Origin: Shewanella subflava
Lineage (GTDB): Bacteria; Pseudomonadota; Gammaproteobacteria; Enterobacterales; Shewanellaceae
Length of the DNA stretch: 64,000 nt
Assembly (NCBI RefSeq): GCF_025971955.1
Contig: NZ_JAPDMX010000003.1
Span: forward strand, 186,001 to 250,000
Direction: 5' to 3'
A program made the position numbers and the translations under genes. This document shows, in pieces, positions 56,094 to 61,099 of this stretch (within the stretch, counting starts at the first letter, position 1; each line of letters opens with the position of its first letter). The notes below the pieces were generated by a model. That model ran no database searches. It saw nothing but the letters and a program-made list of their open reading frames with translations, and had not been told where the DNA came from.

Positions 56094-56109
56094 ATTTTCA
56101 GCACATAAA

Positions 56110-56274
56110 CCACCAACTTCAGTAGGTGAGCTTTGCTAACGGTGTGGTACAAGCTTCTAAATCAGGGATGAGTTAGTCGATCCTATAGGGATCTATTTAC
56201 GGCGTCTTGTTAACGCACGATAGGAAAGCGCCCTTATAGGGCGTGATATCAAAGCCACCTTCTTCAGAAGGTGG
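56110..56274. repeat. Structured repeat, copy 1 (PATE-like)
   Basis: This 165-base unit repeats 188 bases downstream with about 91% identity (roughly 14 differences in 161 aligned bases). Within it, hairpins can form near the left edge (CACC-ACT/AGT-GGTG), centrally (CGCCCT/AGGGCG, about 56229-56243) and at the right edge (CCACCTTC/GAAGGTGG, 56255-56274). End hairpins on both sides with no ORF are typical of palindrome-associated, IS200/IS605-derived elements, but I cannot confirm the family. Confidence 0.7.
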
Positions 56275-56297
56275 ATTCTTTACTTTCAGCCCTTACC

Positions 56298-56463
56298 CCC
56301 CCAATTTCAGTAGGTGAGCTTTGCTAATTGTGCGGTACAAGCTTCTAAATCAGGGATGATTTAGTAGAGCCTATAGGGATATATTTACGGCGTCTTGTTT
56401 ACGCACGATAGGACAGCGCCCCTTATAGGGCGTGATATCCAAGCCACCTTCTTCGGAAGTTGG
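56298..56463. repeat. Structured repeat, copy 2 (PATE-like)
   Basis: The second copy of the unit at 56110 carries a one-base insertion in the central hairpin (GCGCCCC) and substitutions in both end hairpins. It is followed by the upstream region of the DASH cryptochrome gene. The two copies are separated by a spacer of about 23 bases. Confidence 0.7.
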
Positions 56464-56585
56464 TGCTTTTATTGGCGGTTTTTATGGATAAATAACTGAT
56501 AATGGGGTTGCTTGCTCAAGTAAGGTAAACTTTTCTGCCCATCAGCACGTAATGGTTCATACGTTCATTTGTTAGTGAGAGCCAG

Positions 56586-57935
56586 GTGTCTTTATATCGC
56601 TCCCTTTTTTGTTTTTCTACTGATCTTAGATTAACGGATAATCTGGCGTTAAGCGCTTTAATAAGCCGTAGCTCAGATATTGCTTTCGTATTTGTTTTTG
56701 ATGAAAACAGTTTCAAACCCAATTATTTTCAACAGACATCGATGGGGAAGCACAGACTGGCTTTTTTATTACAATCTTTAGAAGATTTAAGTGGTCAACT
56801 TAACGCATTAGGGCACAAGCTTCATCTTTGTTATGGTGAACCTGTAAAAGTGATTACTGATATTGTTGATGCTTTTAATATCGAACAAGTGGGTTATTCA
56901 CAGCCAGTCGGTTGGAACGAAAGGGTTAGTTGGCAAAAATTACACACCAGACTAAGCGAGACGCGTTTTGTATCCCAGTGGAGTAATAGTTTATTCAGTG
57001 AAGAGCAAATAAAGGGGGTTGATCTTACCTCTTTTAGTTTTTCACAATTTAGGCGCCATGTAGAAGCTAAACCTTTTGCCGTGTCTAAATGTTGCCAAAC
57101 CTGGCTGGGTGATCTGCCTCAACCACTGATGATTGATACCCAGCCATTTCAGCAGGCCGATAGCGATAAGCTAGCCCGTTTATTACCTCATCCTGAAACA
57201 ACACCTTTGGTGTTAGGCGGAGAGAAAAGCGCTCAGGCCCATTTACTAAATTATTTCAGCCAATCATCTCCATCGACTTATAAAGCGACTCGTAATGAGC
57301 TTGATGGTTTCGAAAACTCGACAAAATTTAGCCCATTCTTAGCCATTGGCAATCTTTCTGCGCGTCAAATATGGGCTGCATTACGTCAATATGAGGCTAT
57401 CCATGGTGCGAATGACTCGACTTATTGGATAGGTTTCGAGTTACTGTGGCGTGAATACTTCCATTGGTTGACCTTAACGTTGGGTAAACATGTTTTTAGA
57501 TTTAAAGGTATGAAAACAACACCGCCGTTAACGTGTTTTTTACCAGAGCGTTTTACTAAGTGGTGCCAGGGTAATACTCCTTTTCCTTTAGTGAATGCTT
57601 GCATGAAACAACTTAATGCCACGGGATATATGTCCAACCGCGGTCGTCAAATTGTTGCCAGCTGTCTGGTGAATGAATTGCGTGTGGATTGGCGTTATGG
57701 GGCGGCATATTTTGAGCATCAACTTATCGATTATGATGTTGCCTCTAATTGGTGTAATTGGCAATACATAGCCGGAGTCGGTGTAGATCCTCGAGGAGGA
57801 CGGCATTTTAATATTGCCAAACAAGCTCAAACCTATGATCCCAATAACCGGTTTATTCAACTCTGGCAAGGAGATAAAGACTTGTGCAGTTTGGATTCTG
57901 TTGATGCTGCAGATTGGCCTATGTCGGCTGAATAA
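56586..57935 (+). CDS. Cryptochrome/photolyase, DASH type
   Basis: This 449-aa flavoprotein has the photolyase alpha/beta domain at the N-terminus (SLFCFSTDLRLTDNLALSAL, GKHRLAFLLQSLEDL) and a helical FAD-binding domain. NRGRQIVASCLVNELRVDWRYGAAYFEHQLIDYDVASNWCNWQYIAGVGVDPRGGRHFNIAKQAQ-type sequence is the diagnostic DASH C-terminal pattern. DASH enzymes repair pyrimidine dimers in single-stranded DNA and may act as blue-light sensors. The start is GTG at 56586, whose translation matches family starts. The FAD- and DNA-binding Trp/Tyr pattern is intact by eye. It is the first gene of the light/repair cluster. Confidence 0.9.
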   Translation: MSLYRSLFCFSTDLRLTDNLALSALISRSSDIAFVFVFDENSFKPNYFQQTSMGKHRLAFLLQSLEDLSGQLNALGHKLHLCYGEPVKVITDIVDAFNIEQVGYSQPVGWNERVSWQKLHTRLSETRFVSQWSNSLFSEEQIKGVDLTSFSFSQFRRHVEAKPFAVSKCCQTWLGDLPQPLMIDTQPFQQADSDKLARLLPHPETTPLVLGGEKSAQAHLLNYFSQSSPSTYKATRNELDGFENSTKFSPFLAIGNLSARQIWAALRQYEAIHGANDSTYWIGFELLWREYFHWLTLTLGKHVFRFKGMKTTPPLTCFLPERFTKWCQGNTPFPLVNACMKQLNATGYMSNRGRQIVASCLVNELRVDWRYGAAYFEHQLIDYDVASNWCNWQYIAGVGVDPRGGRHFNIAKQAQTYDPNNRFIQLWQGDKDLCSLDSVDAADWPMSAE

Positions 57936-58221
57936 AGCTCATTGAACGTTGATTTCGATTGCCGTTGTTTGGTTCAAGCGGGCTTAAGATTGTTGTTAAA
58001 TCAAGCTTTAGCAATGGGATAAATAGCGGTTTGACTTGGGTAATAATTGATCATTTTTAGCCCTGAATGATATGTGCATGTCATATTATTGAGCTAGGCA
58101 TAGACTATGATTATTGTTTTTTTTGCGGAAGTGAAGCTCGGTTACCCTTGATGGCAGTGGTTTTGGTACGCGAAGACTGACGTTAAATCGATTGTAACCA
58201 CGACATGTGAGGTCTGACTCA
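57936..58221. other. Intergenic region before the DUF2256 gene
   Basis: This 286-base gap has no gene or terminator that I can defend, so the DUF2256 gene may have its own promoter here. Confidence 0.25.
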
Positions 58222-58398
58222 ATGAAAAAATCTGAGCTTCCTTCTAAAGTTTGCCTGACTTGCTCACGCCCTTTTTATTGGCGTAAAAAATGGCAAAAAG
58301 ATTGGCAAAATGTGAAGTACTGTTCAAAACGTTGTGCGGGTGAAAGAAATCGCTCACTGGTAGGCAGAGGCAATAAACATATTAAGCCAAGCCTTTAG
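58222..58398 (+). CDS. DUF2256 small zinc-finger protein
   Basis: This 58-aa protein has [20 protein letters not shown] then [14 protein letters not shown], which is the DUF2256 double CxxC zinc-ribbon-like pattern (C-x2-C and C-x3-C). Function is unknown. Genes of this family commonly lie next to cryptochrome/photolyase genes, as here, so a role as a photolyase partner is a reasonable inference. ATG at 58222 follows GAGG; an open extension to 58207 is not supported. Confidence 0.88.
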
Positions 58399-58468
58399 TT
58401 ACTGATAAACCTCATTTGAGTCGCCTTAAATTAGCAAATAAACACTACATAGAATGCAGGGATTATAG

Positions 58469-60037
58469 ATGGGAACAGCAACAAGATTAAGGTTAGTGTT
58501 AGGTGATCAGCTTAATGCTTCGCATTCTTGGTTTCGTGAAAAACATGATGATACTTTGTATGTGATTGCCGAGTTACACCAAGAAGCCCAATATACCCAG
58601 CACCATGCACAAAAAATATCGGCTTTTTTTGCAGCGATGTCGCAATTTGCTGATGCACTTGTCCAAGCTGGTCATAGGGTATTGCACCTGACGCTAGATG
58701 ACACCGCCCAGTATCAAGATTTGCCGGATTTACTGACAGCATTATTGCAACGCTATAACGTCAACCATTTTGAGTATCAACTCGCAGATGAATACCGATT
58801 ACGTAATCAGCTGGATAATTTTGCTCAAGGGTTAACGATTAGTGCAACAGCCTATGAAACCGAACATTTTTATTTAACAGATACAGAGTTGAGTGATTAT
58901 TTCCAGCAGGGGAAAAGACATCGATTAGAGCATTTTTATCGCAAAATGCGGCTCAGGTTTAACGTGATGATGGAAGGTGAGGAGCCTTTAGGTGGCCAAT
59001 GGAATTTTGATCAGCAAAATCGTCAAAAAATGAAACCTAAAGACTTTGTCTCAGTGCCAGACCCCTTGCTATTTAGTCACGATGTAACAGCAATATGGGA
59101 ACGTATTCAAAGACATAATATCAGTACTATAGGTGAGATGAACATGGCACTTCTGTGGCCGGTCAGCCGCAAGCAATCTTTAATACTCTTAGAGTATTTT
59201 TGTCGCTTTTGTTTGGTTCGCTTCGGTCAATTTCAAGATGCCATGACAGCCAAGTTAGATACCTTGGGCGAATCAAAGCAGTGGACCCTTTACCACTCTA
59301 GATTATCATTTGCACTTAACACCAAGATGATCAGTCCTCAATGTGTTGTAGATACTGCAATTAAGTATTATGCGTCGTCTCAAGGCCAGATATCCCTCCC
59401 CCAAATTGAAGGCTTTGTTCGACAAATTATTGGTTGGCGAGAGTTTGTTCGGGGCGTTTATTGGGCCAACATGCCTGATTACGCGCAATTAAATGCGCTT
59501 AATGCTGATAATTCACTTCCTGATTGGTTTTGGAATGCTAAAACCAAGATGAATTGCTTGCATTATGCAATCAAGCAATCACTTGAATATGCATATGCAC
59601 ATCACATTCAGCGGTTAATGGTAACCGGAAATTTTTGCTTGATAACGGGGATTGACCCCGAGCAAGTAGATGAGTGGTATCTAGGGATTTATATTGATGC
59701 CATTGAGTGGGTAGAAATGCCGAACACTCGAGGCATGAGCCAGTTTGCTGACGGAGGCATTGTGGGTTCTAAGGCCTATGCAGCAAGTGGTAATTACATC
59801 AACAAAATGAGCGATTATTGTAGTGATTGCGCTTATAACGTCAGTAAAACAATTGGCGATAATGCGTGCCCATTAAACGCCTTGTATTGGCGTTTTATGG
59901 TTAAACATCAGCCACTTTTTTCTAATAATCCACGTAATAAAATGGTTTTTGCTAATTGGCAAAAGAAGCCCATTGATGATCAGCAGGCTATTTTAAAAAG
60001 AGCAGAGTATTTACTGAAGCATTTAAACAATATTTAA
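58469..60037 (+). CDS. FeS-containing photolyase-related protein (PhrB/CryB-like)
   Basis: This 522-aa protein starts LRLVLGDQLNASHSWF, the N-terminal photolyase-related pattern. The catalytic half has LNTKMISPQCVVDTAIKYY, GFVRQIIGWREFVRGVYW (FAD/DNA region) and four cysteines placed as in FeS bacterial cryptochromes and photolyases: one in NCLHYA (about residue 363) and three in YCSDC...ACPLNALYW. These bind a 4Fe-4S cluster in (6-4) photolyase PhrB and CryB of Agrobacterium/Rhodobacter. The most likely functions are (6-4) photoproduct repair or blue-light signalling. Start at 58469 follows GGGATTATAG. It ends 15 bases before a perfect inverted repeat. Confidence 0.9.
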   Translation: MGTATRLRLVLGDQLNASHSWFREKHDDTLYVIAELHQEAQYTQHHAQKISAFFAAMSQFADALVQAGHRVLHLTLDDTAQYQDLPDLLTALLQRYNVNHFEYQLADEYRLRNQLDNFAQGLTISATAYETEHFYLTDTELSDYFQQGKRHRLEHFYRKMRLRFNVMMEGEEPLGGQWNFDQQNRQKMKPKDFVSVPDPLLFSHDVTAIWERIQRHNISTIGEMNMALLWPVSRKQSLILLEYFCRFCLVRFGQFQDAMTAKLDTLGESKQWTLYHSRLSFALNTKMISPQCVVDTAIKYYASSQGQISLPQIEGFVRQIIGWREFVRGVYWANMPDYAQLNALNADNSLPDWFWNAKTKMNCLHYAIKQSLEYAYAHHIQRLMVTGNFCLITGIDPEQVDEWYLGIYIDAIEWVEMPNTRGMSQFADGGIVGSKAYAASGNYINKMSDYCSDCAYNVSKTIGDNACPLNALYWRFMVKHQPLFSNNPRNKMVFANWQKKPIDDQQAILKRAEYLLKHLNNI

Positions 60038-60051
60038 GATTATCTCAGACT

Positions 60052-60101
60052 AGGGCGTGTTTATCTTTGCTGATAAAAATAAACAAAGATAAACACGCCC
60101 T
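60052..60101. repeat. Perfect 18-bp inverted repeat (MITE-like mini element)
   Basis: AGGGCGTGTTTATCTTTG (60052-60069) pairs exactly with CAAAGATAAACACGCCCT (60084-60101) around 14 bases. The left arm TAGGGCGTGTT recurs at about 2182 (TAGGGCGTGTTGATC) without its partner. It looks like a miniature repeat or, read as RNA, a terminator for the gene at 58469 (no strong U-run). Both roles could hold. Confidence 0.7.
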
Positions 60102-60132
60102 CATAATCTGAGTATTATATTTAGGATGGATT

Positions 60133-60828
60133 ATGAAGCATTTTTCAACACAAGATTTTGCCATGCTGGATAAACAATATCGGGCAAAACTCATTAACAG
60201 TTTATCAGGTTTTAAAAGTGCTAATTTGGTTGGCACTCAAGATGCCTTGGGGAACACGAATTTATCTATGGTCAGTTCGGTATTCCATATTGGTGCAGAT
60301 CCTGCTCTAGTTGGGATGATTATGCGCCCAGATAGCGTGCCCAGAGACACCTTAACCAATATCAAACATCATGGTTTTTATACTATTAACCATGTTTGTC
60401 GTGATATTTTTCAGCAAGCACATCAAGCATCAGCTCGTTATGGGGCTCAGGAGTCTGAATTTGAAAAAGTCGGCCTAACACCTGAATATCTCGATGGCGT
60501 TCTAGCCCCCTTTGTGGCAGAAAGTCGGCTTAAATTTGCCGTTAAAATGCGTGAGATCATGCCGCTATCGATTAACAATACCATATTAGTCATAGGTGAA
60601 ATATGTCATTTATATTGTGTGTCTGACGCCATAAAAGCGGATGGCTATATTGATATTGAATCGCTTGAAACGGTTGCAGTAACAGGGCTTGATTGTTATC
60701 ACATCACCCATAGGTTATCTCGACTCAGTTACGCCAAACCGAATAAACCCCTTCAATGTTTAAATCTTGATGGTGAAGATAGCGCTGCGTTGATAAGAAG
60801 CAAAAATGACCCACATCAACACAGTTAG
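60133..60828 (+). CDS. Flavin reductase-like domain protein
   Basis: This 231-aa protein has the split-barrel FMN-binding fold of the flavin reductase/flavoredoxin family. KSANLVGTQDALGNTNLSMVSSV, RPDSVPRDTLTNIKHHGFYTIN and FEKVGLTPEYLDGVLAPFVAESRLKFA are in family order. It could supply reduced flavin to the adjacent photolyase or act independently. ATG at 60133 follows ATTTAGGATGG. Its position directly after the FeS photolyase gene, with the inverted repeat in between, is the main reason to propose a functional link. Confidence 0.85.
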   Translation: MKHFSTQDFAMLDKQYRAKLINSLSGFKSANLVGTQDALGNTNLSMVSSVFHIGADPALVGMIMRPDSVPRDTLTNIKHHGFYTINHVCRDIFQQAHQASARYGAQESEFEKVGLTPEYLDGVLAPFVAESRLKFAVKMREIMPLSINNTILVIGEICHLYCVSDAIKADGYIDIESLETVAVTGLDCYHITHRLSRLSYAKPNKPLQCLNLDGEDSAALIRSKNDPHQHS

Positions 60829-60844
60829 CATATGCTGAGCTATA

Positions 60845-61099
60845 TTGAGTCATATCAATTCCGCTGCAGTGACTATTGTGACTAACAAAAAGTTAATTTT
60901 AATACTTAACACTTCAATTATTACTGGTATTTGCTTAATTTTATTGGGCATATACCTGCATAATTTTAATGAGACCATAGAAGCTATGGGGGTGCAGGGC
61001 ATCATTATTAGTGCGATGTGCGTAGCGTTTGGTATGGTGTTGTCATTACCGACCAAAATGTACCTGACGTTTTTGCTTGTTAAACGAGAAGAGAAATAA
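60845..61099 (+). CDS. Small two-TM membrane protein of unknown function
   Basis: This 84-aa frame contains two hydrophobic helices (KLILILNTSIITGICLILLGIYL and IIISAMCVAFGMVLSLPTKMY) separated by an acidic loop. The first part up to VTNKKLI may be untranslated. GTG at 60878 is an alternative start and would give about 73 aa. Its 16-base distance from the flavin reductase stop suggests cotranscription with the photolyase cluster. Family unknown to me. Confidence 0.55.
   Translation: MSHINSAAVTIVTNKKLILILNTSIITGICLILLGIYLHNFNETIEAMGVQGIIISAMCVAFGMVLSLPTKMYLTFLLVKREEK

Follow-up and report, generated by a model that had tools for sequence, protein, structure and literature searches.

In most accounts a photolyase works as a single enzyme, requiring nothing beyond light and its bound cofactors. 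Prokaryotic 6-4 photolyases have been handled as lone enzymes in the accessible literature, and the available parts of the CryB and Vibrio cholerae papers mention no neighbouring small gene. In a stretch of 64,000 nucleotides from Shewanella subflava (the window; positions 186001-250000 of host contig C28 in a 4.09 Mb genome), the gene of an iron-sulfur (FeS)-type 6-4 photolyase (DPRP, or FeS-BCP) instead lies with genes for a DUF2256 protein and a flavin reductase. Here, we report that genomes encoding DUF2256 mostly encode the FeS-type 6-4 photolyase too, in some cases in one cluster, and that the two co-occur whether their genes are linked or unlinked. The specific coupling of DUF2256 to DPRP, persisting without linkage, is the new content. 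A DUF2256-photolyase link was not found in the full-text literature, where most subscription papers lay outside the coverage and database annotations were not searched; nor was any paper found there on COG4338, which we take to be the label of DUF2256.

Several described systems resemble parts of this locus; the papers cited here and below were available in part, and statements about them apply to those parts. The ultraviolet B (UV-B) operon of Synechococcus sp. PCC 7335 also combines two photolyase-family genes in one operon, but these two genes belong to other photolyase classes, and no DUF2256 or flavin reductase appears in the accessible text (PMC9649867). The sigma E/ChrR (RpoE2) regulon responds to light and oxidative stress in Shewanella oneidensis and V. 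cholerae, and its predicted members in S. oneidensis include ybgA-phrB and the DPRP gene SO_4169 (PMC4336711); the portions available name no DUF2256 or flavin reductase in it. DUF2256 itself has been assigned to TRASH, a clan of metal-binding domains, alongside the FCS zinc finger (PMC4047054), and listed among frequent small-protein domains (PMC11796252). In 2025 the function of the FeS cluster in this photolyase class was still called unknown (PMC12082625).

The initial annotation described five co-oriented genes at 56586..61099, and five plus-strand open reading frames (ORFs) are indeed present there:

56586..57935, + strand, DASH-family cryptochrome (cry-DASH), 449 residues; TIGR02765, 463 bits (cut-off 317), with cry-DASH relatives in the PDB
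58222..58398 (ORF from 58207), + strand, DUF2256 predicted small zinc-finger protein, 58 residues; PF10013, 71 bits (cut-off 25)
58469..60037, + strand, FeS-type 6-4 photolyase (DPRP / FeS-BCP), 522 residues; PF04244, 237 bits (cut-off 22)
60133..60828, + strand, flavin-reductase-like split-barrel protein, 231 residues; PF01613, 49 bits (cut-off 27)
60878-61099, + strand, small two-transmembrane (2-TM) membrane protein; a real ORF

The cry-DASH score exceeds the curated cut-off of its model, and the DUF2256 and flavin reductase scores exceed the gathering scores of theirs. DUF2256 also carries the C-x2-C...C-x3-C pattern (C11, C14, C34, C38), and its start is likelier to be the ATG at 58222, which has GAGG upstream, than the GTG at 58207. 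Reductase activity is predicted for the PF01613 protein. For the 2-TM protein, the profile searches returned no family above cut-off.

DUF2256 co-occurs with DPRP across genomes

In the phylum sample of 378 genomes, DUF2256 was found in 98 and DPRP in 99; 84 genomes carry both, 14 DUF2256 alone and 15 DPRP alone (odds ratio 106, Fisher p 7e-53, without kinship correction). As a control family we used PF03441, the class I photolyases and cryptochromes, which is present in 214 of the 378 genomes, in a few of them weakly. DUF2256 occurs in 83 of 98 genomes with both PF03441 and DPRP, versus 14 of 116 with PF03441 and no DPRP and 0 of 163 that lack both; it is also present in the one genome that has DPRP and no PF03441. 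DUF2256 therefore tracks DPRP and not photolyases generally. Among the 84 genomes with both families, the two genes lie within 1.5 kb in 36 (30 on the same strand and 6 on opposite strands, with DPRP ends estimated) and within 10 kb in 8 more, and are farther apart or on different contigs in 40. Since just 36 of the 84 pairs are so close, the coupling outlives linkage.

The same association was observed at lower ranks. The class sample (185 genomes, 177 genera) has DUF2256 in 25 genomes (two weak partial matches), DPRP in 34 (one weak) and both in 19, with an odds ratio of 31 (p 5e-12). In the genus sample (60 genomes) the counts are 11, 25 (one of them a remnant, in G192) and 10, and the two genes adjoin on the same strand in all 10 genomes with both. 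Two of the 14 named control genomes have both families, and Haloferax volcanii has DPRP only; in the Escherichia coli control PF03441 is present, and DUF2256 and DPRP were not found. Plasmids also carry these genes, with DPRP in 87 records and DUF2256 in 136; on plasmid NZ_CP026129.1, for example, the two matches are 9 bases apart. A phage collection searched for DPRP gave zero matches.

Gene neighbourhoods were compared in the best 80 of at least 571 confirmed DUF2256 places in named genomes, with flanks up to 6 kb. Of the 80 loci, 41 have a member of the photolyase family within 6 kb. DPRP is within reach in 32, always on the DUF2256 strand, and a match to the cry-DASH query in 30, where 40 of 42 such genes share the strand; a flavin reductase is found in 10 (10 of 10 on the same strand). 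All three partners are present in 9 loci and none in 39, and in these 39 no other recurrent neighbour of DUF2256 was seen by eye, looking at the nearest genes only and without a Pfam scan. The expectation that DUF2256 recurs beside photolyases is borne out, and the lack of enrichment that made up the first half of the refuting result set beforehand did not occur; enrichment was found. No DUF2256-photolyase fusion was recognised among the minority of long reading frames around DUF2256 matches that were inspected; one candidate, a long frame in G146 (locus L016), was rejected because it looks like a chance overlapping frame.

Sequence features of the photolyase and of DUF2256

The nearest solved chain to the window DPRP is PDB 7ykn/8a1h (672 bits). 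In the window protein the FeS cysteines C363, C451, C454 and C467 are separated by 87, 2 and 12 residues, within the published FeS-BCP ranges of 86-89, 2 and 12-15 (PMC3204975), and PhrB residues W342, H366, W390, Y424 and Y430 are kept as W355, H379, W403, Y437 and Y443. The DPRP domain, the four FeS cysteines and the PhrB catalytic residues are common to the window protein, 7ykn, 8a1h, Agrobacterium PhrB (4dja) and Rhodobacter CryB (3zxs). By sequence, the gene product is a FeS-type 6-4 photolyase, with a bound 4Fe-4S cluster, FAD and antenna and 6-4 repair activity predicted. In G223, G231 and G233 (L157, L158 and L159) the DPRP open frames span 606-617 residues and match in two pieces, as if an insertion were present.

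Twelve positions are invariant in 70 DUF2256 sequences (L6, C11, C14, W20, R21, K23, W24, W28, V31, C34, S35 and C38), and the window protein has 16 lysines and arginines versus 3 aspartates and glutamates. In the structural model the first two cysteines sit at a hairpin and the last two precede a helix; block means of the predicted local distance difference test (pLDDT) are 89-91 over residues 11-40. In both fold comparisons of the model, covering the fold families in the VIA-align list, YacG came top, below significance. The small four-cysteine folds at the top of these comparisons, all weak, are the YacG gyrase-inhibitor zinc finger (4tma) and the FCS zinc finger (2w0t). YacG is presumably DUF329 and hence a TRASH-clan companion of DUF2256. 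The DUF2256 profile searched against PDB sequences gave a best E value of 0.11 (ribosomal L24), with YacG at 0.63. DUF2256 is predicted to be a treble-clef zinc finger, faintly YacG-like, in which the four cysteines would bind zinc.

A promoter-like site precedes the cluster

A site upstream of the cluster, absent from the initial annotation, resembles a promoter:

56526..56551, + strand, promoter-like site TAAACTT-N15-CGTA, 60 bp 5' of the cry-DASH start

The exact site occurs in 9 of 14 module loci examined, the window included, and is not in the other five (G237, G216, G239, G207 and G209). In G242 the exact site is farther off, 459 bp upstream, and the site at 60 bp has one mismatch. For the pattern TAAACYT-N15-CGTA, 0.06 matches are expected in the window. 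It is found in 15 of 249 loci (1.64 Mb), at nine distinct places, each 5' of the module, a shortened form of it or a remnant; these loci were picked for carrying the module, and the match rate is not a genome-wide one. In 1.92 Mb (47%) of the host genome there are three strict matches versus 1.8 predicted from the window shuffle rate, of which one precedes the module, one lies 40 bp before an unrelated 285-residue ORF and one precedes no ORF. With numbers so near chance, the site did not hold up as a genome-wide regulon tag. The evidence therefore lies in conservation among relatives and not in rarity, and of the three strict matches only the module's recurs in those relatives that were examined.

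Under a matrix derived from the sites of the module itself, the module site ranks highest, followed by a variant 61 bp before folX in the folX-folE operon (L300:12757-13879, host contig C28). The host operon of a desulfurase-DUF1722 gene and phrB has TGAAC-N17-CGTAT 58 bp upstream, by a looser pattern with 54 matches in the 1.92 Mb of host DNA. Coming from looser patterns, the folX-folE and RudS-phrB sites are weak alone.

Sigma E/ChrR promoters have been given as TGATC-N16-18-CGTAW in V. cholerae (PMC5241685) and TGATCC...CGTAAT in S. oneidensis (PMC4336711). Read as TAAAC-N17-CGTAA, the site at 56526 has the -10 element CGTAW and the 16-18 spacing of this class, whereas its -35 element, TAAAC, differs from TGATC at two of five bases. 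Because of this mismatch the site was not classed as a sigma E/ChrR promoter. From this promoter-like site, the cluster may be induced by light.

A photolyase gene has been lost from the cluster

In G204 (L193) and G254 (L206), a 483-residue photolyase-family gene lies between cry-DASH and DUF2256, overlapping or abutting both. In the window, a 286-bp gap between cry-DASH and the DUF2256 ATG takes its place, a feature likewise added here:

57936..58206 (left ~57936-58032, right ~58187-58206), + strand, decayed ends of a lost photolyase-family gene

Compared with the intact gene in L193, the left end of the gap corresponds to its start and the right end to its last codons. The DNA alignment stops at 58032 and picks up again at 58187, and at the protein level the matching segments are short (E 0.005 and 0.17, at permissive settings). 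Judged from these alignments, a further photolyase gene has been lost from the window cluster.

Relatives show further stages. G262 (L208) keeps DUF2256, DPRP and the flavin reductase, with only a fragment of cry; G192 (L207) has only fragments of cry, DPRP and the flavin reductase, in preserved order; and in G235 (L210) rluF and the OsmC-YcaO gene (window start 62338) have two unrelated genes between them. These intact, fragmented and empty loci therefore point to one chromosomal slot, in which the cluster is being pruned, in several relatives; elsewhere, for example in G198, G230 and G239, the module's neighbours differ. What the window holds is a recurrent photoreactivation module in pruned form. 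A PhrB-type photolyase is encoded elsewhere in the host (NF007955, 548 bits against a cut-off of 506), in a second photolyase operon (L246:3505-5966, host contig C11) where it follows a 2-thiouracil desulfurase-DUF1722 protein.

Also new is a tandem pair of a ~185 bp element at ~56097-56466, with a hairpin-like end CCACCTTCTTC...GGTGG; relative to L207 and L208, it is an insertion between rluF and the module promoter.

The flavin reductase and the 2-TM protein differ in their ties to the module

The flavin reductase matches PDB 3fge over nearly the full chain (251 bits). That entry is a putative flavin reductase with a split barrel domain, its function being a putative label only, and no literature on it was found, judged by title and abstract. 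In the class sample a close homolog (at least 171 bits, followed by a gap down to 62 bits) occurs in 6 of 185 genomes. Five of the six carry DPRP, the exception being G157, and in three the homolog lies near DPRP or DUF2256: G000, G139 (on the opposite strand) and G053 (~2.5 kb away). The reductase had been put forward as a plausible partner; its presence in 10 of the 80 named loci, always on the same strand, and in DPRP genomes in five of six cases supports this, and the sixth, without DPRP, does not. Its tie to the module is real and looser than that between DUF2256 and DPRP.

The ten named loci with a flavin reductase were placed in Bacteroidota by their organism names, and the set of flavin reductase, DUF2256, cry-DASH and DPRP recurs in loci so assigned. 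FolE, DUF2805, an ABC1-type kinase and an SDR-DUF2867 protein are repeat members of some named clusters. The DUF2805 protein (PF10985; L100:4237-4521) is a second small protein of unknown function near photolyase and DUF2256 genes. FolE near the module in some Bacteroidota loci is a hint of pterin supply.

The 2-TM protein had also been proposed as a member, which our comparison does not support. It matches in 26 of 58 family-sample genomes (two weakly, at 34 and 29 bits), and 21 of the 26 show no module gene within ~1.5 kb; the other five are G000, G204, G206, G254 and G262. It is near the module in G216 and G242 as well, outside the family sample. We therefore excluded it as a separate conserved gene, mostly away from the module. 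Its start is likelier to be the GTG at 60878, since in most homologs the alignment begins only near residue 10-13.

Discussion

We propose, at about even likelihood, that DUF2256 is a dedicated docking helper of the FeS-type 6-4 photolyase within a likely light-induced photoreactivation cluster. In this mechanism DUF2256 would bind zinc through its four cysteines, and its invariant W-R-x-K-W...W patch and strong positive charge may keep the photolyase attached to DNA or to a partner protein. The flavin reductase could help to maintain reduced flavin and so keep the flavin adenine dinucleotide (FAD) repair-ready, and a sigma E/ChrR-like factor might drive the cluster. A bolder version, which we regard as tentative and on balance doubtful, makes DUF2256 a dedicated accessory zinc-finger subunit that loads or holds the photolyase on damaged DNA, so that photorepair would be a multi-protein process with a helper, a reductase and paired photolyases.

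Several observations weigh against an obligatory pairing of DUF2256 with DPRP. DUF2256 was not found in 15 of the 99 DPRP genomes of the phylum sample, and it is therefore not obligatory; within the genus it was not found in 14 of 24. On a tree of 52 DPRP sequences (29 class-sample loci, 22 genus loci and the window; some DPRP genomes had no locus), its presence needs at least 11 changes, against a shuffled mean of 17.5, with 3 of 500 shuffles as low; gain or loss of DUF2256 is frequent. In G206 (L205), DUF2256 lies directly 5' of a flavin reductase in a genome where DPRP was not matched; this unusual arrangement speaks for a tie between DUF2256 and the reductase.

That tie leads to another reading, in which DUF2256 serves the flavin reductase as a regulator or redox partner, and its company with DPRP comes merely from shared membership of a light-stress regulon. 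In 7 of the 80 best named loci (of at least 571) no more than 300 bp separate the reductase from DUF2256, G206 keeps these two and no DPRP, and a common promoter type would account for co-occurrence without linkage. Yet the close reductase homolog is in 6 class-sample genomes versus 25 for DUF2256, so most DUF2256 genes are without such a partner, and DUF2256 is tied by co-occurrence far more strongly to DPRP than to other photolyases; we consider this reading quite improbable. The preference for DPRP over other photolyases also speaks against a purely ecological or transfer-borne coupling, in which sunlit bacteria would acquire both genes, often via plasmids, without a common function. The plasmid records, the patchy distribution with repeated gain or loss and the decay in close relatives fit such an origin, but direct same-strand adjacency in the genus and the retention of both genes in 40 genomes despite distance or separate contigs do not, and little likelihood is left to it. 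DUF2256 could instead act as a small chaperone in the making of the photolyase, loading its 4Fe-4S cluster, flavin or antenna. It goes with the FeS-bearing class and not with FeS-free photolyases, and PhrB with mutated cysteines is reported to be insoluble or to fail in expression, the cluster being assumed necessary for stability (PMC4619345). The 15 DPRP genomes without DUF2256 count against a chaperone. So do its very small size and a motif that suggests zinc binding, unlike that of a known FeS carrier, and we hold this role to be unlikely, if not remote.

If docking is the role of DUF2256, one class of photolyases would have its own helper in a small, widespread protein that follows it across genomes. 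A common domain of unknown function would then have an assigned role, and the photolyase FeS cluster would gain an experimental handle.

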